Positions 1,674 to 20,670 of a DNA stretch of 20,670 nucleotides are shown in pieces; position 1 is the first letter of the stretch; each line of letters starts with the position of its first letter. The stretch lies in NCBI RefSeq assembly GCF_000972705.2, contig NZ_LATL02000164.1, forward strand, positions 1 to 20,670. Direction: 5' to 3'. The translations under genes and the position numbers were made by a program. The DNA is from Limnoraphis robusta CS-951 (lineage in GTDB: Bacteria > Cyanobacteriota > Cyanobacteriia > Cyanobacteriales > Microcoleaceae). The notes beneath the pieces were generated by a model. The model saw only the letters and a program-made list of their open reading frames with translations, searched no databases and was not told where the DNA came from.

Positions 1674-1745
1674 AATTCTAATTTTTTTTGATTTAAAGGC
1701 ACTATTAAAAGGTTTGAGTTACCTGATTTTTATTATATCAATCAT

Positions 1746-2864: not shown

Positions 2865-2951
2865 AATTAATCACCCGTTTTTTGAGGAAAAGTAGAAATA
2901 GGTCTATTTGTCTATTATAGGAACAAATTGAAGAATCTCAGCTAAAAAAAA

Positions 2952-4634
2952 TCAGAAAATAGACCATTTTCTCAAAAGTTTCTGAATCTCAGACGCTGAG
3001 ACTAATGAAACCTGCTGTACTTCATCACATTTTTGCTTTTTTAACAGGTTGAGTTGTTCGTCAGTCTCTACTCCATCTGCAATTACTTTCAATTTTAAAC
3101 CTTTGGCGATAGAACTGATCATATCAATTACAGTTGATCTGACTGAAAGGGTTTGTAGTAAGCTAGAATCCAGTTTGATTCCATCTAGGGCGAGTTCTCC
3201 TAAATAACTGATCGTCGCGTGTTCTAAGTTAAACTGACTGATGATTGTTTGAATTTTCAGTTGTTTGATGTTCATTAGTTGAGCCGCCAGTGCATTCAAA
3301 TTTTTAGCATTGGCAATCAAATCAGCAGAAATTTCTAATGCTAAATGAGCCGAATCCACTCGTGATTCTTGACACCAATCCGCTAATTTTTTCAGGCTAT
3401 TATTTTCGGTTAATAACGATTCGGGATAGGGAACCGCCACTTGTAAAAACAACCGGGAATTTTGCCAAGCTTTGGCTTGTTCAAATGCGGTTTTTAAGAT
3501 CCATTCACTAACGGTTATCGTCAAACCTGATTCGGCAATTAAATCAGAAATTCTCGTCTGAGAAATTTCTCCAAATTGGGGATGATTCCAATAAATTGCT
3601 GTTCCAACACCGACTATTTTTTTGCGGCGAATATCGAGGCGAGGTTGATAATAAACTTTTAATTCTTGACGTTCCCAAGCTTGGCGAAAATCAGCCATCA
3701 GTTGAAACTGTTGAGACAGATCAGAACCAAACAGAGGCTGAGTATAAATTTGATAGCGATTTCCTCCTAATTGCTTGGCTTCTCCCATTGCAATACCCGC
3801 CTGTCGTCGCAACTCTTCTAACGTCGAACCATAAGGATAAAAAGCAATCCCAATCGTTGCCGTGATCGGAATTAATTTTCCGCCTAAATGAAAGGGTTCG
3901 CTAACTAAATTGAGCAAACGTTGAGCCAGATCAGCAACACTGGAAGTCTGAGAAACGGCGGGTAAAATGATCGCAAATTCATCCCCATTTACACGAGCCA
4001 CTTGAGAACCTTCTACATTCTGAATAAACTGATTCAATCGTTGGGCTAATTGTTGGAAGATTAAATCTCCATTGGGATAACCTATTGCTTCATTAACACG
4101 TTGAAATCGATCTAGCCCTAACAACAAAAAGGGAACTAAATTTTTTTGATTGTTTCGTTGAGCGATCGCTTGTTGTAAAGAACCATCAGTTTCTAAAGCT
4201 TGGAGGTTGAGTAAGCCTGTGAGTTGATCATAACGTTCTAACTGTTTAATGTGTTCTTGTTGTTGAGCGGTTCGTTGAAGTCTTGCGGCGATCGCATCTA
4301 ATAATTCTTCACTGCTACAGGGTTTCGTGAGATAATCATCTGCACCCAAATTCATCCCTTGTCGTAAATCGGTTCGTTCGGTTTTAGCCGTGAGAAAAAC
4401 AAAGGGAATATTAGCGGTTTCAGGATGCTTTCTTAACTCCATTAAAACGCCATAACCATCGAGTTTAGGCATCATTACATCACAGATAATTAAATCAGGA
4501 ATAATATGTTTTGCTTGTTTTAATCCTTCAATTCCATTGGTTGTAGTCTCCACCTCAAAGCCTTCTAGTTCTAAGAGTTCAGAAATATTTTCTCGAATGG
4601 CTTCTTCATCTTCTATGATTAAAATTTTCGTCAT
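2952..4634 (-). CDS. REC-GGDEF-EAL protein with degenerate catalytic sites
   Basis: A 560-residue protein with receiver (1-120; Asp52 in CDVMMP, Lys104), GGDEF domain (about 132-300) and EAL domain (about 310-555). The GGDEF half reads NGDEF at 216-220, and the usual first metal-binding Asp is Gly173 (LGLDRF for xDxDxF), so diguanylate cyclase activity is doubtful. The EAL half is clearly degenerate: the EAL triplet is GTA (344-346), the NLS motif is VPY, DDFGTG is replaced by SQFNLE, and EGVE is DGVE. Lys488 (KLD) and Glu434 remain. The protein is therefore probably a non-catalytic receptor or scaffold switched by phosphorylation; weak cyclase activity cannot be excluded. AAAGGAG about nine bases upstream of the ATG supports the start. 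It lies 33 bp after its better-preserved paralogue, with which it shares domain order and length. Confidence 0.88.
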   Translation of the reverse strand: MTKILIIEDEEAIRENISELLELEGFEVETTTNGIEGLKQAKHIIPDLIICDVMMPKLDGYGVLMELRKHPETANIPFVFLTAKTERTDLRQGMNLGADDYLTKPCSSEELLDAIAARLQRTAQQQEHIKQLERYDQLTGLLNLQALETDGSLQQAIAQRNNQKNLVPFLLLGLDRFQRVNEAIGYPNGDLIFQQLAQRLNQFIQNVEGSQVARVNGDEFAIILPAVSQTSSVADLAQRLLNLVSEPFHLGGKLIPITATIGIAFYPYGSTLEELRRQAGIAMGEAKQLGGNRYQIYTQPLFGSDLSQQFQLMADFRQAWERQELKVYYQPRLDIRRKKIVGVGTAIYWNHPQFGEISQTRISDLIAESGLTITVSEWILKTAFEQAKAWQNSRLFLQVAVPYPESLLTENNSLKKLADWCQESRVDSAHLALEISADLIANAKNLNALAAQLMNIKQLKIQTIISQFNLEHATISYLGELALDGIKLDSSLLQTLSVRSTVIDMISSIAKGLKLKVIADGVETDEQLNLLKKQKCDEVQQVSLVSASEIQKLLRKWSIF

Positions 4635-4667
4635 TTTGGATAACTCCTTTGAATTTAATCGCGGTAA

Positions 4668-6401
4668 TTATGGTTGACTTTTTAAATGCTGACCCTTTTC
4701 AAATAAAGCGAGAAACTCCTCCGCAGGTAAGGGACGACTGAATAAATAGCCTTGAATGATATCACAGTGATATTGTTGTAATAAATCTAATTCTTCTTGG
4801 GTTTCTACCCCTTCCGCGACGACCTGTAAGTTAAGCTGATGAGCCATTTTAATCACCGCTTCAACAATCACTTGATTTTTAGAATTTTGATCCAGATTTT
4901 GAATAAAGCATCGATCTAACTTCAAGACATCAAAGGGAAATTGTTGTAAGTAGCTGAGAGAGGAATATCCGGTTCCAAAGTCATCAATGGCAATTTGTAA
5001 GCCTAACGCTTTGAGATGATTGAGTTTTTGAATTGAGGCTTCTTCATGCTCGACTAAAAAACTTTCAGTTAACTCTAATTCTAAACAAGTCGGAGGTAAA
5101 CCTTCAGCTAATAAAATTTCTAATATTTTTTGACGAATATGAGGAAGATTAAACTGACGACCCGATAAATTCACCGCGATTTGCATGGCATTTAAACCCA
5201 GTTTATGCCATGCTTTTGTCTGTTTACAAGCGGTTCTTAAAACCCATTCACCAATCGGTTCGATTAAGCCACTTTCTTCGGCTATCGGAATAAAGACAGC
5301 CGGAGAAACAAAGCCTCGCTTACTCTCAAACCAACGAATCAGAGCCTCTGCTCCCATAATTTTACCTGTTTTTAGATCGACTTTGGGTTGATAATAAAGC
5401 TGAAGTTCATTTCGATCTAAAGCTCGTCTGAGATCGGTTTCTAAAGCAATTTGATCATGATCTTTCGTTTCCCAAGAGGCTTGATAATATTCATAGCGAT
5501 TTCCGCCTTTTTGCTGAGATTGACTGACTGCGGTTTGACTTCGATCTAGGAGTTGATCGATTTCGTCCCCATCACGAGGATAAAACGCTATACCGATACT
5601 GAAGGTTAGAAAAACTTCTTTATCGTAGATAAAAAAGGGTAAAGATAGGTTTTTGAGCAACATCTCTGCGAGTTTAAACGCAGTATTTTGATCGGTGATG
5701 GCCTCAAGAATTATCACAAATTTTTCTTCATTTAAGTGAGAGACTTTGGCTCGGTTTCTGAGCTGCTGAATCATTCGTTCTCCCACTGCCTTGAGAAGAC
5801 AACTACTCGCATCATATCCCCAGGATTCATTGATGCGTCTGAACCGATCTATATTGACAGAAATAATGGGAATCAGCCTATATTGATCAGGGTTTAGGCT
5901 TTGTTTTACATTTTCAAATTGTTCTCGCAGGCCTAAACGATTGGGCAGATTTGTAATATTATCAATATAGATTAATTGCTTGAGTTGCTCTTGCACTTTC
6001 TGTACTTGACTTTGATAGTGCTGTTTGACGATGGAATGTTTTTCCAGTCGAACTGTAATGGCTTTTAAAAGTTCGGTTGCCGTACAAGGTTTACTAATAT
6101 AGTCATCAGCCCCCAGTTCCATCCCTTTCCGAATATTGCTTCGATCTGCTAAAGCCGTCATAAAGATAAAGGGAATGGTAGCCGTTAAGGGATCACAACG
6201 CAGTTGTTGTAAAACTGCATATCCGTTTAGTTTAGGCATCATTACATCACATAAAATCAGATCGGGTTGATGTACTTGAGCTAGCTTTATTCCTTCTTCG
6301 CCATTTTCTGCTTCCCACACCTCAAACTCTTCGACTTCGAGCAACTCTTTAATATTAATTCTAATCATTTCTTCGTCTTCTATTATTAAAATTTTTTTCA
6401 T
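4668..6401 (-). CDS. REC-GGDEF-EAL c-di-GMP phosphodiesterase (GGDEF inactive, EAL intact)
   Basis: A 577-residue protein: receiver (phospho-acceptor Asp52, Lys104), GGDEF domain (about 140-305) and EAL domain (about 320-570). The GGDEF signature is replaced by NEEKF (224-228) and the first metal Asp by Asn183, so cyclase activity should be lost. The EAL site is complete: EAL (352-354) within GAEALIRW, Asn411 in VNLSGRQF, Glu443 in ELTES, Asp473/474 in DDFGTG, Lys494 in KLD, Glu530 in AEGVE, plus IQGYLFSRPLP near the end. The expected activity is hydrolysis of cyclic di-GMP to pGpG, controlled by receiver phosphorylation; the dead GGDEF may still bind GTP as a regulator, as known for some family members. 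The start at 6401 is preferred over the ATG seven codons upstream because GGGGAG lies five to six bases before it. It is the second gene of the signalling cluster, 33 bp ahead of its degenerate paralogue. Confidence 0.9.
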   Translation of the reverse strand: MKKILIIEDEEMIRINIKELLEVEEFEVWEAENGEEGIKLAQVHQPDLILCDVMMPKLNGYAVLQQLRCDPLTATIPFIFMTALADRSNIRKGMELGADDYISKPCTATELLKAITVRLEKHSIVKQHYQSQVQKVQEQLKQLIYIDNITNLPNRLGLREQFENVKQSLNPDQYRLIPIISVNIDRFRRINESWGYDASSCLLKAVGERMIQQLRNRAKVSHLNEEKFVIILEAITDQNTAFKLAEMLLKNLSLPFFIYDKEVFLTFSIGIAFYPRDGDEIDQLLDRSQTAVSQSQQKGGNRYEYYQASWETKDHDQIALETDLRRALDRNELQLYYQPKVDLKTGKIMGAEALIRWFESKRGFVSPAVFIPIAEESGLIEPIGEWVLRTACKQTKAWHKLGLNAMQIAVNLSGRQFNLPHIRQKILEILLAEGLPPTCLELELTESFLVEHEEASIQKLNHLKALGLQIAIDDFGTGYSSLSYLQQFPFDVLKLDRCFIQNLDQNSKNQVIVEAVIKMAHQLNLQVVAEGVETQEELDLLQQYHCDIIQGYLFSRPLPAEEFLALFEKGQHLKSQP

Positions 6402-6471
6402 TGTTCTCCCCAAAATAAACATAAAAAATGATAAATTTACAAGATGATAAGCTTTGGGAAAATCAGTTCAC

Positions 6472-7329
6472 TCAATCACAGTTTTGAATGATTACCGTTT
6501 CACAAGTTTTCAACGGTAGAATAATCGTGATTTTAGTCCCAACATTTTCTTCACTTTCATAGCTAATTTGACCTTGATGCAGATCAACTATTTTTTTAAC
6601 GATAGATAATCCTAAGCCAGTCCCCGATATGGTGCCGACATTTGTACCTCGATGAAAATGAGTAAACAAACGCTCTTGATCTTTTTGGGGAATGCCAATT
6701 CCTTGATCTTTTACTTTTAATACGGCTTGATTATTTTCCGTGATTAACTCTAATTGTATTTGCCCTCTTTCTTGAGAATATTTCAGGGCATTATCCAGTA
6801 TGTTTTTTAGCATTTGTTTGATTAAATTCTCGTCTAATTTTACTTTATTTTCCCCTCCAGAGCTTGTAAAAAAAATCGGATTATTGGGAAATTTTTGTTG
6901 CATTTTTTCAACGAGATTTGAACAAAGTTTTTCTAAATCTATTGGAGTGAAATTAATCTCCGAATCCCCGGAATCTAACTTACTGACAATCAAAACCTCT
7001 TCCAATAAACTTGTCATTTGTTCAATTCCCTGTTTAATACGCAGGAAATGGTTGTGTTTTTTCTCCTCCGAAATCTTATTACTGTAGTTTTCCAGGAGTC
7101 CGGCCGAGAAGGAAATGGTTGTGAGTGGAGTCCGAAATTCGTGAGAAACCGTAGTAATAAAACGTGATTTCAACTCGTTTAATTCATGTTCAAGTTGTTT
7201 CAGTTCATAATAATGATTTTCTTTCATTTCTTGCATTTCGCTTTCGAGATGATCAATGATTTTTTGTAAATCATCAATAGATTTGGAGGATCTTTTAACG
7301 CGCTTAAAATCATCTTTATTTTCAATCAT
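6472..7329 (-). CDS. Soluble histidine kinase without a sensor domain
   Basis: A 285-residue protein consisting only of an N-terminal coiled coil (about 15-58, Glu/Lys/Leu-rich) and a kinase core. Motifs are H-box SHEFRTPLTT (His63), N-box KNILDNALKYS (Asn176, Asn180), G1 DQGIGIP (from Asp208) and G2 GTGLGLSIV (236-244). The HKHFxRIK-type dimerisation helix and the RGTNVGTISGTG loop resemble the REC-kinase at 1746-2864. It has no PAS, GAF or receiver domain and no membrane helix, so input must come from a partner, probably through the coiled coil. It is first in the minus-strand cluster and diverges from the giant kinase, with 389 bp between the two starts. The ATG at 7329 is chosen; an in-frame TTG six codons upstream (7347) is possible, and neither has a strong Shine-Dalgarno. 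Confidence 0.87.
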   Translation of the reverse strand: MIENKDDFKRVKRSSKSIDDLQKIIDHLESEMQEMKENHYYELKQLEHELNELKSRFITTVSHEFRTPLTTISFSAGLLENYSNKISEEKKHNHFLRIKQGIEQMTSLLEEVLIVSKLDSGDSEINFTPIDLEKLCSNLVEKMQQKFPNNPIFFTSSGGENKVKLDENLIKQMLKNILDNALKYSQERGQIQLELITENNQAVLKVKDQGIGIPQKDQERLFTHFHRGTNVGTISGTGLGLSIVKKIVDLHQGQISYESEENVGTKITIILPLKTCETVIIQNCD

Positions 7330-7718
7330 AATCAATACCCAACTCAATACAACAACTCAGAAATCGAATTTTCCGAACTATAGCATAGTTTGATTCAAGC
7401 CTAATTTTTTAGATTTATTTTTTTAAAAAACTCGGGTTTGTCTTGAATAGAACTAGATCAGTAGAGATTCAGAGCAAGCACTGCATCAAATAGAACAGAT
7501 AACCAACTAGGTCAGACGTTGAGTGTGATAACTGAATGATTTACTGACTCAATAGACCTGAAGCTTGCAACTGAAAACTCTTGTTTCTATCTTAGTTCAT
7601 CAGGAACAGATTAAATTTAAAATTTGTAACCTGCTCAAGCCCAGTCGTCACTAGAGTCTACTGACTCAGGCTAAGATTAAAATAGATTAAATAATATATA
7701 CTTAGTTTCAAATCACCT
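7330..7718. other. Divergent intergenic region between two kinase genes
   Basis: 389 bp with no credible ORF, AT-rich near both gene starts. It should contain the promoters of the minus-strand signalling cluster and of the plus-strand giant kinase. Visible structures are a small dyad AACTAT-AGC-ATAGTT (7376-7390), which includes a TATAGT -10-like box for the minus strand; a 19-bp palindrome (7647-7665); and a 10-bp direct repeat TACTGACTCA at 7542-7551 and 7659-7668, the second copy overlapping the palindrome. An AT-rich stretch (7674-7701, with AATATATAC near its end) precedes the giant kinase. No clear -35/-10 pair or Shine-Dalgarno is seen for that gene. Confidence 0.6.
7647..7665. promoter_or_regulatory. 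19-bp near-perfect palindrome (possible operator)
   Basis: The sequence has the form GTCA-c-TAGA-g-TCTA-c-TGAC. It is symmetric at every position except 5 and 15 and the central base. It lies 53 bp upstream of the giant kinase start, where a dimeric regulator could bind. The second copy of the direct repeat TACTGACTCA overlaps its right arm, and the first copy lies 117 bp upstream. The symmetry is seen directly; the operator role is inferred and no regulator is assigned. Confidence 0.4.
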
Positions 7719-10700
7719 ATGGCAATGGTCATACAGCCCGATCTTTTGCCGATCTACTCCATAAATCTGGAAGAGATTATTGAACGCCGTCCGCTTGTGG
7801 TTGAGCCTCACACCTCTATTTTAGAAGTTTTGGCTCAAATGAATCAAACGGCAGGTTCGAGTTGCTCCATTTCCCAGTCTCTATCCGAAGGAACCCTTAA
7901 AGCTTCAATTTCAGCAAACAGCTATGCTTTAGTGATGGTGGGTGATCGGATAACGGGTATTTTTACGGAGCGAGATGTCGTGCGTCTAACGGCTTCAGGA
8001 AGTCATCTTCACACCTCTATTGCTGAAGTGATGACTCAACAGCTTCAGGTTCTGCATCAGGCTGAATACCGGGGTATTTTCACAGTTTTGTCACAATTTC
8101 GACAGCATCAAATTCGTCATCTTCCGGTTCTCAACGATCAGGGGAAATTATGGGGCGTGATCACAAAAGAAAGTCTCAGCCAAGCCCTCAAGCCCGCCAA
8201 TCTCCTAAAAATGCGTTCTGTCGCTGAGGTGATGAATACTCAAGTCATTGATGCACCTCCAAGCACTTCAGTCTTAGAAATCGTGCAGTTAATGGCGAGA
8301 TCTGGGGTGAGTTGTGTTGTGATTACGGAAACCCAAAGCAGCATCGGCGATCAAAAGCCGTTCAAAATTCCCGTCGGGATCATAACAGAACGAGATATTG
8401 TTCAATTTCAAATTTTAGGTTTAAATTGCGATCGCTTGTCTGCTGAAGAAGTGATGAGTCAACCGCTCTTTACCATCAAACCGGATGAGAGTTTATGGAT
8501 AGCCTATCAACAAATGCAACCCAAATCGATTCGTCGGCTCGTCGTCACCGGAGAACAGGGAGAACTGCAAGGTTTACTCACACACAGCCATCTCATCCAA
8601 CCGTTAGACCCCGTAGAACTATATGGCGTTTTTGATGTTTTACACCAAAAAGTCTGTCACCTCGAACTCGAAAAACAGGAGTTCCTCAAACATCAACAAA
8701 TCGAAACTGAACTGAAAATTCGCGCCAAACAACAAGAAGCGATCGCTCATCTGAGTCAAGTCGCAATCAATCAAACTCAACTCGACAATTTACTCACTGA
8801 AGCCGCTGCTTTAGTCGCCCAAACCCTAGACATTGAATACATTGAAATTCTCGAACTTCTCCCTAACCAAGCAACATTTTTACTGAGAAACGGTGTGGGT
8901 TGGGGAAGCGATTTAATCAAACAAGCCAGGATCTCCGCCAATTCACAAACTCAAGCGGGCTATACCCTCAGCACAGGTGAACCCGTGATCGTTAGCGACT
9001 TACGAGTGGAAACCCGTTTTAAAGGGACTCCTATGCTCCACAACACAGGTATTGTCAGTGGGGCGACGGTGATTATCGCTGGAAAACAGCATCCCTTTGG
9101 CGTGTTAGGCGTTCATTCCCAGCAAGAGCGAACCTTCTCACCCGATGACCTCTACTTTTTACAAGCGATCGCCAATATTATCGCCTCTGCGGTAGAACGA
9201 CTCGAAGCCGAAGCCGAACTCAATCAATTTTTTCATCTGTCTCTGGATTTGTTTTGTATTGCGGGAACAGATGGCTATTTCAAACGCATCAACCCCCGAT
9301 TTCAATATCTCCTTGGCTACAGCGAAGCAGAACTATTATCTCAACCCATGTTGAGCTTTGTTCACCCCGAAGATCAAGCCAAAACCCAGTCCGAGTTAGA
9401 ACACTTAAGCCAAGGAATTCCCGGGACTTATTTAGAAAATCGCTATCGATGCAAAGACGGTTCCTATCGCTGGTTGTCGTGGATATCAACACCATTAGAA
9501 CAGGGTTTATTGTATGCTGTCGCCCGCGATGTGACCGAACATAAACAGTTTGAACAAGAATTACAAGCCAGTCAAAGACGCTACGCCACCCTCACCGAAG
9601 TTTCTCCTGTGGGGATATTTCATATCAATACTCAAGGGGAATGTCTCTACGTCAATCAACGTTGGTGTGAGATAGCCGGGTTGTCTCCTGAAGAAGCGCT
9701 CGGGAATGGATGGATAAAAGCCATTCATCGTGAAGATCGAGAACAAGTTTCTCAGCAATGGCATGAAGCCGCTCAACAAAAGAAACAATTTAAATGCGAA
9801 TATCGCTTTCAACGCCCTGATTCTAGTATTATATGGGTCTATGGTCAAGCCACAGCAGAACGCAATTCGAGTGGAGTGACGATCGCTTATGTTGGGACGA
9901 TTACTGATATTAACGAACAGCAAGCTGCACTTCGTGAACGCAAACAAGCAGAACTCGCCCTCCAACATCTCAATCAACAATTAGAAGTGATGGTCGAGCG
10001 ACGCACCACTCAATTAAAGCAGATAAACCAACAACTTTTCAAGGAAGTTCGAGAACACCGTCAAACTGAAGCCGAACTGAAACAGAGTCAGCACTTTATC
10101 CAAAGTATTACTGATGCGACTCCGAATATTCTCTATATTTATGATCGGATTGAGCAACGAAATATTTATGTCAATCGGGAAATAGAGATCCTTTTAGGTT
10201 ATACTCGCCAACAAATTCAAGACATGGGCGATCAACTGTTTTTGAATATTATTCATCCCGAAGATTTAGCAAAACTTCCCGCTCATTACCTGAAATTTGA
10301 CACCGCTAAAAATAATGAAATTATCGAAATAGAGTATCGGGTTAGGGATGTCAAGGGAAACTGGCATTGGTTACTCAGTCGAGATACAATATTTACTCGT
10401 ACCGCCGGGGGTAAACCGAAACAAATTCTCGGCGCTGCATCGGATATTACCTCACGCAAAAAAACGGAAGAACAGTTACGTTTGAGTGAACGAGCGATCG
10501 CGGCGAGTAGTAATGGAATTGTCATCTCTGATGCTCGTTTAGAAGATCATCCAGTAGTTTTTGTCAACCCCGCTTTTGAAAAAATTACCGGATATTCAGC
10601 CTCAGAAATTATCGGAAGAAATAGCCGTTTTTTACAAGGAGCGGATTACGATCAACCGGGACTGGAACGGTTACGTGCTGCATTCAAAAATCAAGAAAGC

Positions 10701-13571
10701 TGTACCGTTGTCCTTCGCAACTATCGCAAAGATGGGAGTTTATTTTGGAATGAATTAAACGTTTCGCCGATTTACGATGATCAGGGAAATATCACCCACT
10801 TTTTAGGAATTCAAAATGATGTTACTGAGTCCAAACTCGCCGAAGAACGACTGCGAAAACAGATCAAACGAGAACAACTGATTAAAACCCTGACTCAACG
10901 CATTCGAGAATCTTTAGATCTCAATGAAATTCTCAATACAACCGTCACCGAAGTTAAGCAGGTACTAGAAACAGATCGAGCGTTAATTTATCGTATCTTT
11001 CCAGATGCGACGGGTTTTGTGATCGCTGAAGCCCTTAATTCCGGTTGGACTCCCATCCTCAATCAAACCTTCCCCGAAGAAAATTTTCCCTCAGAATGTC
11101 ATCAAGATTATCTTCAGGGTAAAGTCTGCGTCATCTGTGATATTCAGCGAAATAAAGTGTTACCTTGTTTAGTTGAATTTGTTGAGCAGTTTAAAGTCAA
11201 AGCTAAAATTGCGGTGCCGATTATTCAGCAAAATACCTTGTGGGGATTGTTGATTGTTCATCAGTGTTCAAGTGAGAGAACATGGCTCGCAAAAGAGATT
11301 GATTTACTCAAACAACTCGCCAGTCAGTTAGGAATAGCGATTAAACAATCTGAACTCTATAACCAACTGCAAACCGAACTAAAAGAACGTCAAGAAGCAC
11401 AACAAGCCTTGCTGATGAGTCAAGAACGATTAGAATATTTGCTGTCTTCAAGTCCAGGGATTCTCTACAGTATTGAAGCCCAAGGAGAGAACCGCACAAC
11501 CTTTGTGAGTCAGAATGCTTTAAGTGTTTTAGGTTATGAATTTTATGAACTCCTGAAACCCGGATTCTGGTTTGAGCATCTTCATCCAGATGATATTTCT
11601 CGGATTACAACAACAGGATTAGCACCGTTATTTAAGCAAGGATATTACAGTCACGAATACCGTTTTCTACATGGTGATGGTAGATATCGTTGGATTTATG
11701 ATCAGTTAAAATTGGTGCGAGATGCGGCGGGTAAACCGTTAGAAATTATCGGCTATTGGATTGATATTAGCGATCGCAAACAAGCCGAAATGGAGTTGCG
11801 TGACCTCAGTAATGCGATGCAAAATACAGTTGAGGGAATCTCTCGACTTGATCCGCAAGGGCGTTATGTTACAATTAACCCCGCTTATGCTCATATCTGC
11901 GGTTATGAACCCGAAGAATTAATCGGGGTAGAATGGTCAAATACCGTTCATCCTGATGAAATTGATCGCTTAAATCAAGCCTATCAGCAAATGCTGAGAA
12001 CGGGAAAAGTAGAAGTTGAAACCCGAGGCGTTCGCAAAGATGGTTCCTATTTCTATAAGCAAGTTACGATGGTCAGCGCCTACGATGATCAGGGACAATT
12101 TAGCGGTCATCATTGCTTTATGAAAGATATCAGCGAACAGCAAGCTGCACTTCGTGAACGCAAACAAGCAGAAGAACAACTGAAAGCCACAAACGAACAA
12201 TTGCAAGCCGTTTTAGATGCGGTTCCAGGGTTTGTTTCTTGGGTGAGTTCTGATCTGCATTATCTAGGCGTGAACCGCCAACTCGCTAGCGCGATGAACC
12301 TAACTCCAGAAGAATTTATCGGTCAAAAGGTAGGGTTTTTAGATCCTTATTCGTCAGCGTTTAGTCAGTTTTTTGAACAGTTTTTCAGCGATATTAAAAG
12401 TAGCACTTATCAAGTTTCCTTAGAAATTAAAATTGCCAATGAAGCCAGATTTTATTTACTGGTTGCTCAAAAATATAATCAAGATCAAGCGGCGATTTTG
12501 GTGGGAATTGATATCACCGAACGCAAGCAGATCGAAGAACAACTGCGAGCAACGACTTTTCGGTTTAGTACCTTGATTGAAAACTTACAATTGGGGGTTT
12601 TAGTTGAAAATGAAAATCAAGAGATTGTGTTAGTAAATAAAACCTTCTGTGATTTATTGCAAATTCCAATTGCTCCTCAAACCCTGATCGGACATCATTT
12701 TTCTCATTGGATTCAAAACTATCAAGATTTATTTCCCGATCATCGTCAGTTTATCCAACGATCTCAGGAGATTATCAATCAAGAGAAAATCGTCACCAAT
12801 GAAGAATTGAAAGCTATAGGTGAACGTGTGTTTGAGCGAGATTATGTTCCGATAAAGAGCCAACAGCAATATCAAGGACATCTTTGGATGTATCGAGATA
12901 TTAGCGATCGCAAAGAAGCGGAAATACAGTTAAAGAACTCCTTACGAGAAAAAGAAATTTTACTCAAAGAAATTCATCATAGAGTCAAAAATAATTTATT
13001 TGTGGTCGCGAATTTGTTAGAGTTTCAGTCCGATTACTTTGATGATCCGAAACTGATTCAAGCCCTAGAAGATAGCAAAAATAGAGTGTATTCAATGGCG
13101 TTAATTCACGAAAAACTCTATCAATCAACCAACTTATCTCGGATTGATTTTGGAGAGTATCTCGAACAGTTAATTTATCATTTGCTAGAATCTTATAGCG
13201 GGATTGATGAACGGGTTGAGTTTGAAACCGAAATCGAACCGGTTTCCTTAAATATTGAAACGGCTCATCCCTGTGGGTTAATTGTCAATGAGTTAATTTC
13301 TAATGTCTTTAAACACGCCTTTCCCAACGGAAGAACAGGTAAAGTTTACTTCAAACTCCATCAAAATTCCCAAGGAATTATCACTCTAAAAATTCAAGAT
13401 AATGGAATCGGTTTTCCGGCGGATATGGATTTTCACAATGTTGATTCTCTCGGGATGGAATTAATCTGTACTTTAACCACTCAACTTGAGGGAAATCTCG
13501 AACTGATTCCCTCAGAAGGAACGACTTTTGAGTTAACCTTTTCTGAACTCGAATATCGACAACGCTACTAA
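7719..13571 (+). CDS. Giant soluble multisensor histidine kinase (4 CBS, GAF, 8 PAS including a Cys-less LOV, CBCR-like GAF, HisKA_2)
   Basis: A 1950-residue protein without membrane helices. Domains in order: four CBS motifs (about 20-295, GIFTERD and GIITERD); coiled linker; GAF1 (355-495); PAS1 (505-610); PAS2 (620-735); coiled coil (735-790); PAS3 (792-915); LOV-like PAS4 (922-1045); phytochrome/cyanobacteriochrome-like GAF2 (1055-1215); PAS5 (1232-1352); PAS6 (1360-1475); PAS7 (1488-1602); PAS8 (1610-1732). The output is HisKA_2 (EIHHRVKNNL, His1753/1754) plus HATPase with NELISN (1857-1862), DNGIG (from Asp1894) and SLGMELI. In the LOV-like domain GRNCRFLQ reads GRNSRFLQ (Ser969), while flavin-contact residues Asn968, Asn1001, Asn1011 and Gln1032 are kept. 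In GAF2 the bilin Cys is kept (Cys1150 in LPC) but followed by Leu rather than His. It has no receiver, so phosphate must go to a separate regulator; the divergent operon offers four. ATG 7719 is used, ATG 7725 is possible. Confidence 0.93.
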   Translation: MAMVIQPDLLPIYSINLEEIIERRPLVVEPHTSILEVLAQMNQTAGSSCSISQSLSEGTLKASISANSYALVMVGDRITGIFTERDVVRLTASGSHLHTSIAEVMTQQLQVLHQAEYRGIFTVLSQFRQHQIRHLPVLNDQGKLWGVITKESLSQALKPANLLKMRSVAEVMNTQVIDAPPSTSVLEIVQLMARSGVSCVVITETQSSIGDQKPFKIPVGIITERDIVQFQILGLNCDRLSAEEVMSQPLFTIKPDESLWIAYQQMQPKSIRRLVVTGEQGELQGLLTHSHLIQPLDPVELYGVFDVLHQKVCHLELEKQEFLKHQQIETELKIRAKQQEAIAHLSQVAINQTQLDNLLTEAAALVAQTLDIEYIEILELLPNQATFLLRNGVGWGSDLIKQARISANSQTQAGYTLSTGEPVIVSDLRVETRFKGTPMLHNTGIVSGATVIIAGKQHPFGVLGVHSQQERTFSPDDLYFLQAIANIIASAVERLEAEAELNQFFHLSLDLFCIAGTDGYFKRINPRFQYLLGYSEAELLSQPMLSFVHPEDQAKTQSELEHLSQGIPGTYLENRYRCKDGSYRWLSWISTPLEQGLLYAVARDVTEHKQFEQELQASQRRYATLTEVSPVGIFHINTQGECLYVNQRWCEIAGLSPEEALGNGWIKAIHREDREQVSQQWHEAAQQKKQFKCEYRFQRPDSSIIWVYGQATAERNSSGVTIAYVGTITDINEQQAALRERKQAELALQHLNQQLEVMVERRTTQLKQINQQLFKEVREHRQTEAELKQSQHFIQSITDATPNILYIYDRIEQRNIYVNREIEILLGYTRQQIQDMGDQLFLNIIHPEDLAKLPAHYLKFDTAKNNEIIEIEYRVRDVKGNWHWLLSRDTIFTRTAGGKPKQILGAASDITSRKKTEEQLRLSERAIAASSNGIVISDARLEDHPVVFVNPAFEKITGYSASEIIGRNSRFLQGADYDQPGLERLRAAFKNQESCTVVLRNYRKDGSLFWNELNVSPIYDDQGNITHFLGIQNDVTESKLAEERLRKQIKREQLIKTLTQRIRESLDLNEILNTTVTEVKQVLETDRALIYRIFPDATGFVIAEALNSGWTPILNQTFPEENFPSECHQDYLQGKVCVICDIQRNKVLPCLVEFVEQFKVKAKIAVPIIQQNTLWGLLIVHQCSSERTWLAKEIDLLKQLASQLGIAIKQSELYNQLQTELKERQEAQQALLMSQERLEYLLSSSPGILYSIEAQGENRTTFVSQNALSVLGYEFYELLKPGFWFEHLHPDDISRITTTGLAPLFKQGYYSHEYRFLHGDGRYRWIYDQLKLVRDAAGKPLEIIGYWIDISDRKQAEMELRDLSNAMQNTVEGISRLDPQGRYVTINPAYAHICGYEPEELIGVEWSNTVHPDEIDRLNQAYQQMLRTGKVEVETRGVRKDGSYFYKQVTMVSAYDDQGQFSGHHCFMKDISEQQAALRERKQAEEQLKATNEQLQAVLDAVPGFVSWVSSDLHYLGVNRQLASAMNLTPEEFIGQKVGFLDPYSSAFSQFFEQFFSDIKSSTYQVSLEIKIANEARFYLLVAQKYNQDQAAILVGIDITERKQIEEQLRATTFRFSTLIENLQLGVLVENENQEIVLVNKTFCDLLQIPIAPQTLIGHHFSHWIQNYQDLFPDHRQFIQRSQEIINQEKIVTNEELKAIGERVFERDYVPIKSQQQYQGHLWMYRDISDRKEAEIQLKNSLREKEILLKEIHHRVKNNLFVVANLLEFQSDYFDDPKLIQALEDSKNRVYSMALIHEKLYQSTNLSRIDFGEYLEQLIYHLLESYSGIDERVEFETEIEPVSLNIETAHPCGLIVNELISNVFKHAFPNGRTGKVYFKLHQNSQGIITLKIQDNGIGFPADMDFHNVDSLGMELICTLTTQLEGNLELIPSEGTTFELTFSELEYRQRY
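9914..9953 (+). repeat. 40-bp exact direct repeat, copy 1 (inside the giant kinase gene)
   Basis: This 40-bp stretch encodes the linker EQQAALRERKQAE after PAS2 and is identical in DNA to 12134-12173. The copies are 2220 bp apart, exactly 740 codons, and in the same frame. Identity at silent positions points to recent duplication or gene conversion rather than protein-level constraint alone. Confidence 0.9.
12134..12173 (+). repeat. 40-bp exact direct repeat, copy 2 (inside the giant kinase gene)
   Basis: This second copy of the 40-bp linker repeat encodes the same EQQAALRERKQAE sequence after PAS6. Recombination with copy 1 would remove 740 residues in frame (PAS3, the LOV-like domain, the CBCR-like GAF, PAS5 and PAS6) and leave a shorter kinase with CBS, GAF, PAS1, PAS2, PAS7, PAS8 and the kinase core. 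Confidence 0.9.
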
Positions 13572-17162: not shown

Positions 17163-17729
17163 ATGGCAATTTTACAATTAGAAGACGGAAGGACTTACAC
17201 CCAACTTGAGGATATTTCTCGCAGGTTAGAACCGTTGAATGTGCGGTTAAATTATTGGCCGGTTAGACAACACCCGGAATTCCAGGCTTTGTTAAATAAA
17301 CCCGCTTTAGATGAGACTGAAAAAGAACAATTGCTTCAGGGATTAGATCATTATTTTGAACAGTTAAAACAAACCGATGGTTATCAATCTCGGGATTTAA
17401 TTGCGTTACATCCTGATATTCCCAATCTTGATTCATTAATGGCAAAATTTGAAAGTTGTCACACCCACGCCGATGATGAAGTCCGCTACATTATTGACGG
17501 TGAAGGGGTGTTTGGGTTTGTTTGTCCCGATGGTTCCCAGATGGAATTAACCATTCAACCCGAAGAGTATATTAATGTTCCAGCCGAAAGCGAACATTGG
17601 TTTCATTTGACTGATAAAAAGCGCATTAAAGCGGTGCGTTACTTTATCACGACAGAGGGTTGGGTTCCCGAATATACGGAAACAAAAATTCGCATGAATT
17701 CTCAAACCAACTCGTTAGTCATGGGTTAA
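17163..17729 (+). CDS. mtnD: Acireductone dioxygenase
   Basis: A 188-residue cupin enzyme of the methionine salvage pathway. With Fe2+ it oxidises 1,2-dihydroxy-3-keto-5-methylthiopentene to formate and 2-keto-4-methylthiobutyrate, the direct precursor of methionine; with Ni2+ the family makes methylthiopropionate, formate and CO instead. Metal ligands are visible as His100 and His102 (CHTHADDEVRY), Glu106 and His145 (SEHWFHL), in the spacing seen for the Klebsiella enzyme. Other family marks are EVRYIIDGEGVFGF and the IRPxEYINVPA-like QPEEYINVPAES. Length is typical. AAGGGAAG upstream of ATG 17163 serves as ribosome site. It is the first of three consecutive mtn genes; a hairpin lies between it and mtnW. 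Confidence 0.95.
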   Translation: MAILQLEDGRTYTQLEDISRRLEPLNVRLNYWPVRQHPEFQALLNKPALDETEKEQLLQGLDHYFEQLKQTDGYQSRDLIALHPDIPNLDSLMAKFESCHTHADDEVRYIIDGEGVFGFVCPDGSQMELTIQPEEYINVPAESEHWFHLTDKKRIKAVRYFITTEGWVPEYTETKIRMNSQTNSLVMG

Positions 17730-17736
17730 AATAAAA

Positions 17737-17764
17737 TCCCCCAATCTTGAAAGAGAACGGGGGA
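17737..17764 (+). terminator. Hairpin between mtnD and mtnW (weak terminator or processing site)
   Basis: TCCCCC (17737-17742) pairs with GGGGGA (17759-17764) around a 16-nt loop, 8 bp after the mtnD stop. No T-run follows, so full termination is doubtful. It could attenuate or stabilise the mtnD message relative to mtnW and mtnB. Confidence 0.35.
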
Positions 17765-17793
17765 AATGAGTTCATTTTGTGTTAATATTAAAG

Positions 17794-18960
17794 ATGACTA
17801 TTGAAGTAGATTATCGCTTTCCTGCGGGTGTTGATGCGGAACGTCAAGCGAAAGTCATTGCTATCGGACAAACGGCTGGAACTTGGGATGCACGGTTTAG
17901 TCACCGAGAAGAAATTATGCGATCGCATTTGGGGGAAGTTCTCGGGATTAAAACGAATAAAAAGGGAGAATATATTGCAACGATTTGCTTTCCAGAAATT
18001 AACGTCGAAAATGATATTGCTAGCCTGCTGACGATGATTTTTGGCAAGTATTCAATGGCAGGTGTCGGTAAGGTTGTCGGCTTGCGTTTAGATGAAAATT
18101 ATGGCAAGTTTCCTCAGTTTGGAATCGAGGGAATTAGAAAACTATTAAATGTGTATAACCGCCCCTTAATTATGGCAATTTATAAGCCTGCTTTGGGGTT
18201 ATCTGCTGCCGATCATGCTAATATTTTAGAACAGGTGGCGTTTGCGGGGTTGGATATTATTAAAGATGATGAAATCATGGCAGATTTAGACGTCGCCCCT
18301 ACGTTAAAACGCTTAGAAGCTTGTTATCCGGTTTTGGAACGAGTTAAAAAAGAAACCGGGCGAACCGTTTTGTATGCGGTAAATGTCACGGGTTCAGCCA
18401 CAGAATTAATAAAAAAAGCTAAAATGTTAGTTCAAAATGGGGCAAATGCTCTATTATTAAATGTGCTAACTTATGGGTTTTCCGTGTTGGAAGCATTAGC
18501 CGCAGATCCAGAGATTAATGTGCCGATTTTTGCCCATCCAGCGTTAGCGGGGGCGATGTGTGCTTCATCGGATACAGGGTTAGCTTATTCGGTGGTTTTA
18601 GGAACATTAATGGCGCATGGCGGGGCGGATGCGGTGCTTTATCCGGCGCATTATGGAAGTTTACCGTTTGATGCGGTAGAAGAAGGTAAAATAAGAGATA
18701 TTTTGCGATCGCGAAATGTTTTTCCGGTGCCTTCTGCGGGGATTCATCCGGGTATTGTTCCCCAAGCTTTAAAAGATTATGGAAATGAGGTTATTTTAAA
18801 TGCGGGAACCGGAATTATGGATCATCCAGAGAATCCATCAGCAGGTGTAAAAGCGTTTTTTGAAGCGTTAGAACGATGTCAAAATCAACAATCTTTTGAA
18901 CTAGAAAATGTACCAACTGGGGCGTTACGTCAAGCCTTGGAAAAATGGGGAAATAAATAA
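17794..18960 (+). CDS. mtnW: RuBisCO-like protein, 2,3-diketo-5-methylthiopentyl-1-phosphate enolase
   Basis: A 388-residue form IV RuBisCO homologue. It has the RuBisCO barrel signature GLDIIKDDE (153-161), in which Lys157 is the expected carbamylated, Mg-binding Lys together with Asp159 and Glu160. KPALGLS (131-137) corresponds to KPKLGLS of true RuBisCO, with the second Lys replaced. GSATELIKKA, FAHPALAGAM and SAGIHPGIVPQ follow. The protein is shorter than true large subunits (about 470 residues) and lacks the loop-6 catalytic Lys, so CO2 fixation is not expected. The neighbours fix the role: MtnW tautomerises 2,3-diketo-5-methylthiopentyl-1-phosphate to the enol phosphate. An enzyme of this kind is established in Bacillus and in Microcystis. 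The ATG at 17794 fits the family start; a GTG five codons upstream is less likely. No strong Shine-Dalgarno is seen, so coupling to mtnD translation is not assured. Confidence 0.93.
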   Translation: MTIEVDYRFPAGVDAERQAKVIAIGQTAGTWDARFSHREEIMRSHLGEVLGIKTNKKGEYIATICFPEINVENDIASLLTMIFGKYSMAGVGKVVGLRLDENYGKFPQFGIEGIRKLLNVYNRPLIMAIYKPALGLSAADHANILEQVAFAGLDIIKDDEIMADLDVAPTLKRLEACYPVLERVKKETGRTVLYAVNVTGSATELIKKAKMLVQNGANALLLNVLTYGFSVLEALAADPEINVPIFAHPALAGAMCASSDTGLAYSVVLGTLMAHGGADAVLYPAHYGSLPFDAVEEGKIRDILRSRNVFPVPSAGIHPGIVPQALKDYGNEVILNAGTGIMDHPENPSAGVKAFFEALERCQNQQSFELENVPTGALRQALEKWGNK

Positions 18961-18973
18961 GGAAAAAACAGAG

Positions 18974-19597
18974 ATGAACAGCGATCCACGTCAAGATTTA
19001 ATCACCGCTTCTCGTCAATTTTATCAACTGGGTTGGATGGCGGGAACGGCTGGTAATTTGTCTGCTAGAGTCGAGGATGGGAGTTTTTGGATTACCGCCA
19101 GTGGCAAACAAAAAGGCAAGTTAACCGAAGAAGATTTTGTGCGCGTTTCTCTGCAAGGAGAGGTGATAGAAAACCCAAATTTAAAGAATCGCCCCTCCGC
19201 AGAAACGAGTATTCATCAAGCTGTTTATTCGTTGTTTCCTGATGCAAAAGCTTGTTATCATGTTCACTCTGTAGAAGCGAAACTGGTGACAAACTTTACC
19301 GAAGGCGATCACTTGAATTTACCCCCCATTGAAATGTTAAAAGGGTTAGGGGTTTGGGAAGAACATCCGAAAGTCGTGATGCCTGTGTTTAAAAATTACT
19401 TAGAAGTGTCTAAAATTGCAGAAGAAATTGGCGATCGCTTTAAACAATCAAAACCCGATGTTCCAGCGTTATTGATTAGAAATCATGGGGTTACGGTTTG
19501 GGCAAATTCAGCCTTTGATGCCGAAAATTATATTGAATTAACAGAATATATTTTCCGTTATATTGTGGCAGCGCGTCAAGTCGGAGTGAACCATTAA
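18974..19597 (+). CDS. mtnB: Methylthioribulose-1-phosphate dehydratase
   Basis: A 207-residue class II aldolase-fold enzyme. It removes water from 5-methylthioribulose-1-phosphate to give 2,3-diketo-5-methylthiopentyl-1-phosphate, the substrate of the enolase encoded just upstream. The Zn site is visible as His96 and His98 (CYHVHSVEA) and His171 (IRNHGVTVW). Family motifs also include GWMAGTAGNLS, ITASGKQKG and RPSAETSIH (with Glu77). Length is normal. ATG 18974 is preceded by AAGGA with about 11-bp spacing and starts 13 bp after mtnW ends; a frame extension to 18908 overlaps mtnW and lacks family similarity, so it is rejected. It is the third gene of the salvage operon and is followed by a hairpin at 19621. 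MtnX or MtnC, MtnA and MtnK/MtnP must be encoded elsewhere. Confidence 0.94.
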   Translation: MNSDPRQDLITASRQFYQLGWMAGTAGNLSARVEDGSFWITASGKQKGKLTEEDFVRVSLQGEVIENPNLKNRPSAETSIHQAVYSLFPDAKACYHVHSVEAKLVTNFTEGDHLNLPPIEMLKGLGVWEEHPKVVMPVFKNYLEVSKIAEEIGDRFKQSKPDVPALLIRNHGVTVWANSAFDAENYIELTEYIFRYIVAARQVGVNH

Positions 19598-19620
19598 TCT
19601 TGACTTCAACCTAAAATAAA

Positions 19621-19651
19621 CTGCTTTAGCCCTGAAACCCGACTAAAGCAG
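19621..19651 (+). terminator. Hairpin after mtnB
   Basis: CTGCTTTAG (19621-19629) and CTAAAGCAG (19643-19651) form a perfect 9-bp stem with a 13-nt loop, 23 bp after the mtnB stop. The following bases (CTAAAACTA) lack a T-run, so it may be a processing or stability hairpin rather than a strong intrinsic terminator. It marks the probable end of the mtn transcript. Confidence 0.5.
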
Positions 19652-19772
19652 CTAAAACTATCTCAATGGAATTCAATGCTACTCAGCCTCTTGTCAAAGA
19701 TTTAACAATTGAGCGTGAGCAAATTATATGGTAGCACCTAGTTGAAGATTTGGCTAGTTCTTTAGACAAATT

Positions 19773-19827
19773 TTCCAAAAACCAAGTTTCTCCAAAAACC
19801 CGCTAACTTCTGCAAAACCGGGTTTTT
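19773..19827 (+). repeat. Degenerate REP-like element overlapping the 3' end of the RAYT gene
   Basis: This 55-bp copy aligns with the element at 20433-20486. Both begin TTCCAAAAA, then CAAGTTTCTCCAAAAACCCG, and both end in ACCGGGTTTTT. Here the inner stem has decayed (CTAACTTCTGCAA instead of the GTTTCT/AGAAAC arms). The minus-strand RAYT stop codon (TAA, 19826-19828) lies in the final T-run, so the gene's end and the repeat's end coincide. Within the element CCAAAAACCAAGTTTCT and CCAAAAACCCGCTAACT repeat with a 17-bp period, an extra left arm also seen in the upstream copy. Confidence 0.75.
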
Positions 19828-20389
19828 ATTCTAAAGTTAAGTGTTGAATCAAAGATTGTTCAATTTCTGATTCAACAAAAAGACGGTAGGAATTCTGAGT
19901 CGTAAATTGTGAGAGAATGATCTGAGGATGAGGTAAATAACCGTCTCTTAAGCCAATATATTCAAGATAACTTGAAAACTCCCAAGCTTCAGGCTTGTTG
20001 ACTAATTTCGCGGCTACAGGGTTTAAATGAATGTATCGAGATAAATGCAATAAATACTCGTTTTTATCTACATGAACAGCTTGAAAACGTCCTTGAAATA
20101 GTGAACCCAATCGATTATAGCGTTTGTTAATTGCTTTCGTATAAGATAGAGAGAACTTTTGCATCATCTCTGACATATTATCGGTTTTGAGATACACTAA
20201 TAAATGATAATGGTTAGGCATTAAACAATAGGCAACTATTTCTATTAAGTCGGGATTAAAAAAGTTACGAATTTGCCGTAAGAAGAATAAGTAATTTTCT
20301 CGTTCAAAAAAGATTAACTGTCTGTTATTGCCTCGATTATAAAGATGATAATAGTTACCTTGATAAAATTGAACAGAACGCGAGGGCAT
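19826..20389 (-). CDS. REP-associated tyrosine transposase (RAYT, Y1_Tnp family)
   Basis: A 187-residue single-domain HUH enzyme related to IS200/IS605 TnpA. The N-terminal YYHLYNRGNNRQ (13-24) and LMPNHYHLLV (56-65) give the metal-binding HUH motif with His60 and His62. SLFQGRF (96-102) and RYIHLNPVAAKLV (118-130) are hallmarks of the RAYT branch; Tyr119 is my candidate catalytic Tyr by alignment from memory. RAYTs nick single-stranded REP hairpins and are thought to spread REP elements; they are usually single-copy, domesticated and not flanked by IS ends. That fits here: REP-like elements lie on both sides, and no IS200-type ends or tnpB are visible. The frame is intact, which implies selection or recent arrival. 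It is convergent with mtnB. No Shine-Dalgarno is seen at ATG 20389. A probable promoter lies at 20416-20445. Confidence 0.9.
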   Translation of the reverse strand: MPSRSVQFYQGNYYHLYNRGNNRQLIFFERENYLFFLRQIRNFFNPDLIEIVAYCLMPNHYHLLVYLKTDNMSEMMQKFSLSYTKAINKRYNRLGSLFQGRFQAVHVDKNEYLLHLSRYIHLNPVAAKLVNKPEAWEFSSYLEYIGLRDGYLPHPQIILSQFTTQNSYRLFVESEIEQSLIQHLTLE

Positions 20390-20415
20390 CAGATTGAGTT
20401 CAAAACTTTGATTTT

Positions 20416-20445
20416 ATTATATCTTAAAACTATTCCAAAAAACAA
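20416..20445 (-). promoter_or_regulatory. Candidate promoter of the RAYT gene, with its -35 inside the REP-like element
   Basis: On the minus strand a perfect TATAAT (plus 20416-20421) lies 18 bp from TTGTTT (plus 20440-20445). Start of transcription would fall about 20 bp before the ATG. The -35 box lies in the outer arm of the upstream REP-like element, so element and gene expression may be physically linked. The -10 is a full consensus match; the -35 is weak. Confidence 0.45.
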
Positions 20446-20486
20446 GTTTCTCCAAAAACCCGGTTTCTTTGAGAAACCGGGTTTTT
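20433..20486 (+). repeat. REP-like element upstream of the RAYT gene (15-bp perfect palindrome plus extra arm)
   Basis: The core is left arm AAAAACCCGGTTTCT (20454-20468), loop TTG, right arm AGAAACCGGGTTTTT (20472-20486). It is preceded by a degenerate extra left arm CCAAAAAACAAGTTTCT (20435-20451), 17 bp in phase with the true arm. The core equals the reverse complement of 16120-16152 exactly. Its right arm is also the first bases of the 42-bp tandem array, so element and array are continuous. Confidence 0.88.
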
Positions 20487-20670
20487 CAACACCTATCAAC
20501 CCGGCTTCCTAGAAGTTACCGGGTTTTTCAACACCTATCAACCCGGCTTCCTAGAAGTTACCGGGTTTTTCAACACCTATCAACCCGGCTTCCTAGAAGT
20601 TACCGGGTTTTTCAACACCTATCAACCCGGCTTCCTAGAAGTTACCGGGTTTTTCAACACCTATCAACCC
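20476..20670 (+). repeat. 42-bp tandem array of palindromic units (4 full copies plus 27 bp, open at the window end)
   Basis: Units begin at 20476, 20518, 20560, 20602 and 20644, each starting ACCGGGTTTTTCAACACC and continuing TATCAACCCGGCTTCCTAG and AAGTT; all visible copies are identical. Across each junction AACCCGG-CTTC-CTA-GAAG-TTA-CCGGGTT forms a hairpin of 7 plus 4 bp with a TTA bulge, a variant of the REP palindrome. A constant 14-bp linker (TTTCAACACCTATC) joins consecutive hairpins. Perfect identity implies very recent expansion or homogenisation. The window ends inside unit 5, so the copy number is unknown. The 42-bp period is a multiple of three, but no gene runs through it. Confidence 0.93.

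Follow-up and report, generated by a model that had tools for sequence, protein, structure and literature searches.

The window analysed here, the whole 20,670-nucleotide stretch of DNA from Limnoraphis robusta CS-951, carries close to its right end a small module composed of a RAYT gene, palindromes on both sides of it and a tandem array (Table 1). Further to the left, at positions 573-7347 and 7719-13571, lie response regulator-, histidine kinase- and GGDEF/EAL-like ORFs, as well as a 1950-aa ORF with PAS-like repeats, all judged by eye from the translations. Methionine-salvage-like genes occupy positions 17163-19597, upstream of the module. They include a RuBisCO-like protein, for which the diketo-methylthiopentyl-phosphate enolase models are the nearest although it stays below their cut-offs, and a methylthioribulose-phosphate dehydratase (TIGR03328, above cut-off) that directly precedes the module.

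Table 1. Features of the RAYT module, with positions in the window
Feature	Position	Strand	Evidence
RAYT (TnpA-REP-like Y1 HUH transposase), intact ORF, 187 aa	19826-20389	-	ORF list, profile searches, alignment, model
Canonical perfect 33-nt palindrome, type A core, AA...TT ends, 5' of the RAYT start	20454-20486		Repeat search, folding
Palindrome at the RAYT stop, degenerate; arm similar to the array unit in reverse reading direction	19794-19826		Repeat search, folding
Left direct-repeat unit: 21-nt non-palindromic lead plus palindrome	19773-19826	+	Repeat D2, sister-genome collinearity
Right direct-repeat unit: lead as in the left unit plus canonical palindrome	20433-20486	+	Repeat D2
Array of 42-bp tandem units, 4.6 or more identical copies, continuing past the window end	20476-20670	+	Repeat search, folding

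The original prediction placed an intact RAYT between two related palindromes in the same orientation, one of them continuing into a tandem array of variant palindromes, and both statements hold. The co-oriented palindromes belong to a direct repeat of 59 nt (D2, 19768-19826 versus 20428-20486, 78% identity). DNA folding gave a perfect 15-3-15 hairpin for the upstream palindrome (-15.8 kcal/mol, z -6.2, 0 of 200 shuffles equally stable), a 9-bp stem for the downstream one (z -2.9), and a hairpin with z -3.7 for the array unit, which consists of a 28-nt imperfect palindrome (7 bp + 4 bp, with a 3-nt bulge) and a 14-nt spacer. The visible array units match each other at 100% before the array runs past the window end, and this identity shows a recent tandem amplification. 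The further suggestion that it is a fresh product of the RAYT is not supported in the same way, as slippage or recombination would look alike. The canonical palindrome has five T at its 3' end, and the CT dinucleotides closest to it lie 2 nt on its 5' side (20450-20451) and 6 nt on its 3' side (20493-20494). In a sister genome (G014), which is 90% identical to the window across nearly all of 17163-19597, collinearity breaks at window position 19771, immediately before the repeat unit; the RAYT is absent from the stretch read there after the break, and a search of that genome gave no RAYT match. The same genome holds 25 type A words, mostly in diverged copies, the AA...TT-ended form of the window copy is frequent in it, and its matches to a 66-nt element at E <0.05 all fall inside query positions 24-65, centred on the 33-mer (29-62).

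The protein scores 46.7 bits against Pfam Y1_Tnp (cut-off 23) and 78.7 bits against NCBIfam REP_Tyr_transpos (NF047646), just below the cut-off of 80; the latter model matches all 31 aligned family members at E 0.001 or better, scored by E and not by cut-off. Its HUH motif is H60-Y61-H62, accompanied by F98-Q99 and S139-S140, and the family alignment identifies Y119, within YIHLNP, as the catalytic tyrosine, which completes a Y1_Tnp HUH core with the Y---NP signature. Residues H60, Y61, H62, F98, G100, Y119, N123, P124, S139 and S140 are invariant in the 31 aligned members, and the catalytic core of the window RAYT is intact by sequence. The best PDB match of an AlphaFold2 model of the protein (mean pLDDT 90) is 4er8, E. 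coli TnpA-REP with bound REP hairpin (E 1.1e-8, TM 0.65/0.73, rmsd 6.4), which is also the nearest structure by sequence profile (E 8.6e-8). The E. coli residues W94, Q95, E100, H101 and R104, which the accessible text of Quentin et al. (2018; PMC6006769) discusses for GTAG recognition, align with F98, Q99, A104, V105 and D108 of the window RAYT.

The pairing of the enzyme with candidate cognate palindromes, also part of the original prediction, recurs among its relatives, for which one scan of the genome collection yielded the best 80 of at least 550 RAYT loci. Among flanks of at least 150 nt, 99/109 upstream and 95/109 downstream ones contain an inverted repeat (loops of 2-60 nt, doublets included) no more than 250 bp from the RAYT. 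Random windows, which are mostly coding, gave 15/459, and a fairer and higher control, the flanks of other ORFs at those RAYT loci, gave 33/254 upstream and 47/254 downstream. Both sides carry such repeats at 86 of 108 RAYTs, and in 81 of these 86 pairs the two sides have the same arm, a count that tolerates up to four differences in 13 and was made without a control set; a single RAYT, at locus L044, has an inverted repeat on neither side. Strict 33-mers are found in 48/91 upstream and 48/91 downstream flanks (control, 12/1564 windows). Usually each flank holds one complete hairpin or a multi-copy array; most of the closest RAYTs have type A palindromes on either side, which at several loci form arrays (periods of 83-102 bp). 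Beside more distant RAYTs the palindromes are different but built alike, namely type B in Nostoc (AGATCCCCGACTTCTT arm), type C in Microcystis, the Leptolyngbya-like types D-F and type G in one Chloroflexi MAG and one Desulfobacterales MAG. One enzyme family thus comes with seven or more natural palindrome types, similar in length and different in their arms. The predicted lack of the GTAG tetranucleotide in the elements is supported: the frequency of GT[AG]G stems beside the window RAYT and its relatives does not exceed background (5/298 flanks versus 19/1084 control windows), whereas in 400-nt flanks of other Y1 loci the identical scan detects them at 9 of 30.

The 184 flank palindromes reduce to 103 distinct 33-mers with 55 distinct left arms, and base composition was tabulated from one 33-mer per left arm (n=55, a few chance palindromes among them). 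Information is at most 0.1 bit outside positions 1-33, so that conservation stops at the borders of the 33-nt compact form; inside them the position counts are A1 45, G2 34, C7 40, G9 39, T15 49 and T33 48, with mirror positions alike. Across RAYT clades the arms vary, but length and a TTCTT-N-AAGAA centre stay constant and the ends are usually AG...CT; the window copy, with its AA...TT ends, deviates from the rule for the ends. A further set of 89 cores was picked by first letters and at least 12 paired positions, which builds in the paired fraction and the 5' letters, so only pair diversity counts there: 13 of 15 pair positions show at least two Watson-Crick types.

Support for the statement that the abundant palindrome type follows the RAYT type comes from the enzyme tree and from word counts. 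The tree kept 110 rows of 163 RAYT-like loci, leaving out those with stops, shorter than 170 aa, below 45% identity or identical to another row. Arm-type labels change 18 times on it, against a shuffled mean of 58.3 and with 0 of 200 shuffles as low; the 22 rows labelled 'none' were counted as a state, and the test is inflated by near-copies and by the non-independence of related genomes. Both enzymes occur together in Nostoc parmelioides FACHB-3921, where type A palindromes flank L015 and type B palindromes flank L072. Words were counted in 388 genomes, all belonging to one order: 265 contain the type A word, the highest count being 1,719 (the reversed word, as control, does not exceed 4), type B words reach 417 per genome, and a RAYT match at E 1e-20 occurs in 63. 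Genomes with an intact type-A RAYT (n=30) have a median of 360.5 A words and 3 B words, those with an intact type-B RAYT (n=13) a median of 1 A word and 109 B words. With broken copies included, A words outnumber B words in 32/35 type-A genomes and B words outnumber A words in 18/18 type-B genomes. The exceptions are G376 and G378, which have an intact type-A RAYT and merely 9 and 3 type A words, and G290. The remaining 10 of the 63 RAYT genomes have other types; five with the Microcystis-type palindrome hold 2-13 A and 0 B words, and another, G162, has a distant RAYT. Note also that both types are abundant in G290 (361 A and 370 B words), whose two RAYTs (L125, L189) differ in their flanks, with type A beside one and a AGAAGCCCGACTTCTT palindrome beside the other. 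A divergent pair of RAYTs (L126 and L180, in G155 and G074; stem branch 0.56) has the hybrid arm AGAAACCGGGTGTCTT, possibly an intermediate palindrome type.

Away from the enzyme genes, the matching palindrome type appears, by word count, to be dispersed in relatives, its copies numbering from tens to hundreds. A 200-kb stretch of one of them (G121) has 64 words, 5 of them in called ORFs, where 46 were expected, and 21 '-+' inverted pairs are spaced 41-42 nt apart, the 21 clusters including 9 pairs and 3 singles; in 200 kb of another (G020), 9 of 24 words lie in ORFs against 17.4 expected, a weak extragenic bias, and six compact hairpins with a 3-nt loop are present. ORF calling was crude for both (at least 300 nt). 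In the one sampled genome G121 the palindromes thus look clearly intergenic and often form REPIN-like inverted pairs. Inverted doublets at fixed spacing and arrays, as in REPINs and BIMEs, are found in relatives, where arrays adjoin RAYTs, and not as such in the window itself.

The expectation that palindrome abundance tracks the RAYT stands for the correspondence of types described above and, in part, for copy number. Among the 61 genomes of the G003 family, median word counts are 455 with a RAYT (13 genomes), 282 with a broken one (4) and 241.5 without (44), with p 0.002 before any correction for kinship. It finds less support elsewhere: at least 20 type A words occur in 80 of 325 RAYT-negative genomes (no match at E 1e-20), and in the Microcoleus-like subset no significant difference separates 6 genomes with a RAYT from 16 without (p 0.22 with the 12-mer, 0.06 with the 15-mer). 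Copy homogeneity, considered as a sign of activity, gave p 0.06 and was set aside. Three genomes (G178, G204 and G162) hold more than 1,300 type A words each and no close RAYT. Other Y1 transposases were considered as the palindrome source in RAYT-negative genomes and rejected: in 30 palindrome-rich genomes, namely 29 of the 80 RAYT-negative ones and G162, 86 other Y1 matches fall in 84 stretches, 78 of which contain no type A word and six of which contain one to three (L140, L150, L151, L307, L322 and L324).

One conserved site, 3' of one gene, was followed through relatives by its upstream flank, the downstream flank of L007 being rearranged and unusable as a synteny anchor; 36 genomes matched and 30 loci were fetched. 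Five genomes have RAYT and arrays at this site, G036 has a broken RAYT, five have palindromes with the RAYT absent from the stretch seen (that of G028 ends 98 nt on), and 19 have neither palindrome nor RAYT (3 nt are visible in G029). In G057 (71% at the flank) a RAYT lies about 265 nt past the site in reversed orientation, which makes a shared ancestral insertion uncertain, and in G045 the site is empty and the RAYT is elsewhere. The simplest account would be that the RAYT was lost and the palindromes stayed behind; gain of the RAYT at a favoured site is an admissible alternative, and a RAYT lying between arrays could have escaped notice where the assembly is fragmented.

We consider it likely that the module is REPtron-like, i.e., a domesticated single-strand transposase of the Y1 (IS200/IS605) type flanked by its own cognate short palindromes. 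A different origin of the same arrangement would be a mobile element, IS-like or of the TIRtron kind of Di Nocera et al., of which the palindromes are the ends, the RAYT the own transposase and the dispersed copies solo ends. We hold this to be rather unlikely, even though the sister genome is collinear up to the start of the repeat unit and lacks the RAYT, and two RAYT matches are present in 6 of the 63 genomes (e.g., G008, G011 and G121). The neighbourhoods fit as well: the RAYT adjoins one conserved gene in five Microcoleus-like genomes, stands next to that gene in reversed orientation in G057, and has other places in G045 and G003. Against it, 57 of the 63 genomes combine a single RAYT match with palindromes by the tens to hundreds, most flanks consist of a whole hairpin or of several copies in an array, and the right end of the window element lies beyond the window, so that no clean empty-site pair is formed.

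It is less probable still that the palindromes spread by other means, such as recombination, slippage or another transposase, and that the RAYT is a hitch-hiker or uses them as landing sites. The many palindrome-rich genomes lacking a RAYT (80 of 325) and the near-equal abundance in Microcoleus-like genomes with and without it fit that reading. However, landing on pre-existing palindromes would not yield the match of clade and type that is seen across phyla and within one genome, the other Y1 genes of the 30 genomes surveyed are untied to the palindrome, and one site presents RAYT, broken RAYT, palindromes alone, and neither. Finally, the hairpins could be ordinary intrinsic terminators or mRNA-stabilising hairpins that are kept by the host and stand beside the RAYT by chance. 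They are strong and, in G121, mainly intergenic, the window copy ends in T residues, and the flanks of other genes have inverted repeats too (33/254 and 47/254); but the frequency at RAYT flanks far exceeds that gene-flank control, the T tract after the 33-mer is not conserved across families (at most 0.1 bit at positions 34-41), and a simple terminator scan of 19600-20670 found none. The terminator reading was rejected, and we regard it as highly improbable.

Our preferred reading is that of a GTAG-less REPtron and not of a classical REP system, in which cleavage and mobility would proceed by analogy with characterized enzymes. The available text on the TnpA-REP enzymes of E. coli and Stenotrophomonas describes cutting of single-strand REP at CT (PMC8266576). 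Likewise, the RAYT would bind the palindrome as a single-strand hairpin and read the hairpin arms for identity, Tyr119 would cut at a CT by the hairpin foot, as in E. coli TnpA-REP, and the cut palindrome would be rejoined elsewhere in the genome. In most relatives this CT would be the palindrome's own end; the window copy would need one of the CTs outside it, at 2 nt on its 5' side or 6 nt on its 3' side. The AG at the hairpin foot could serve as guide, a role that the AA...TT window copy would fit poorly without those outside CTs. Palindromes could outlive the enzyme, and in the 42-bp array a variant palindrome may have been amplified locally and secondarily, via the enzyme or recombination.

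A further step, which we take only tentatively and consider somewhat less probable than its opposite, would be to recognize here a separate REP class. Recognition would then take place inside one perfect 33-nt hairpin, with the clade-specific arm as identity, AG/CT at the foot in place of the external GTAG guide and the two strands as equivalent substrates; the class would fall in a branch of RAYTs hitherto regarded as REP-less and extend over Cyanobacteria and, on MAG contigs, Chloroflexota, Poribacteria and Desulfobacterales. This proposal is weakened because the window copy ends in AA...TT. The question addressed is how a RAYT chooses its palindromes and how these move without a GTAG guide, and the seven or more palindrome types, two of them in one strain, constitute a ready specificity series for binding and cleavage assays. 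Modules of this type may also lie behind many dispersed repeats in the genomes of filamentous cyanobacteria.

Cyanobacterial GTAG REPs and RAYTs are already in print, as the accessible parts of two papers attest (PMC3733652; PMC3116915), and the original prediction, which presented a cyanobacterial REP/RAYT module as a departure from mostly proteobacterial accounts, has to be corrected on this point. A text search for the letters of the two main palindromes returned only papers unrelated by title; an earlier description is possible in figures or supplements, and some of these palindromes may already be drawn in the figures of Di Nocera et al. (PMC3733652).

Compared with the REPtrons built on GTAG REPs (group 2 in E. 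coli, group 3 in Stenotrophomonas), the module shares the Y1 HUH enzyme with the 4er8 fold, dispersed short hairpins on both sides of it, inverted pairs and arrays, and the going together of enzyme and palindrome types. It differs in that GT[AG]G stems are unenriched, the compact hairpin is a perfect 15-3-15, FQ replaces WQ and three residues of the GTAG region are replaced. REPINs have been reported for Nostoc punctiforme (Bertels and Rainey, 2011; PMC3116915), and the inverted doublets near RAYTs resemble these and other REPINs, by the description in the available text and not by repeat sequence. The TIRtron/TIRYT system, as far as the accessible text goes (Di Nocera et al., 2013; PMC3733652), likewise has a RAYT-like gene between GTAG-less repeats, some self-complementary and some dispersed; however, its common motif GGGGWSAS is present in only 16/220 RAYT flanks here, counted without a control. 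By its motifs the window RAYT resembles TnpA-Y1 subclass 2.1 (group 1 of Bertels in the table of Quentin et al., 2018; PMC6006769), with which it has in common NH[YF]H, FQ, Y[IV]HLNP and the conserved serines. According to the portion of that paper available, members of this subclass have a C-terminal HTH or DnaA-like (Bac_DnaA_C) domain and a median length of 238 aa, and automatic and manual searches gave no REP-like sequences for them. The RAYT described here, in contrast, has 187 aa, Pfam reports Y1_Tnp alone without a C-terminal domain, and palindromes are present, a finding that fits poorly with the published statement of a REP-less RAYT branch.
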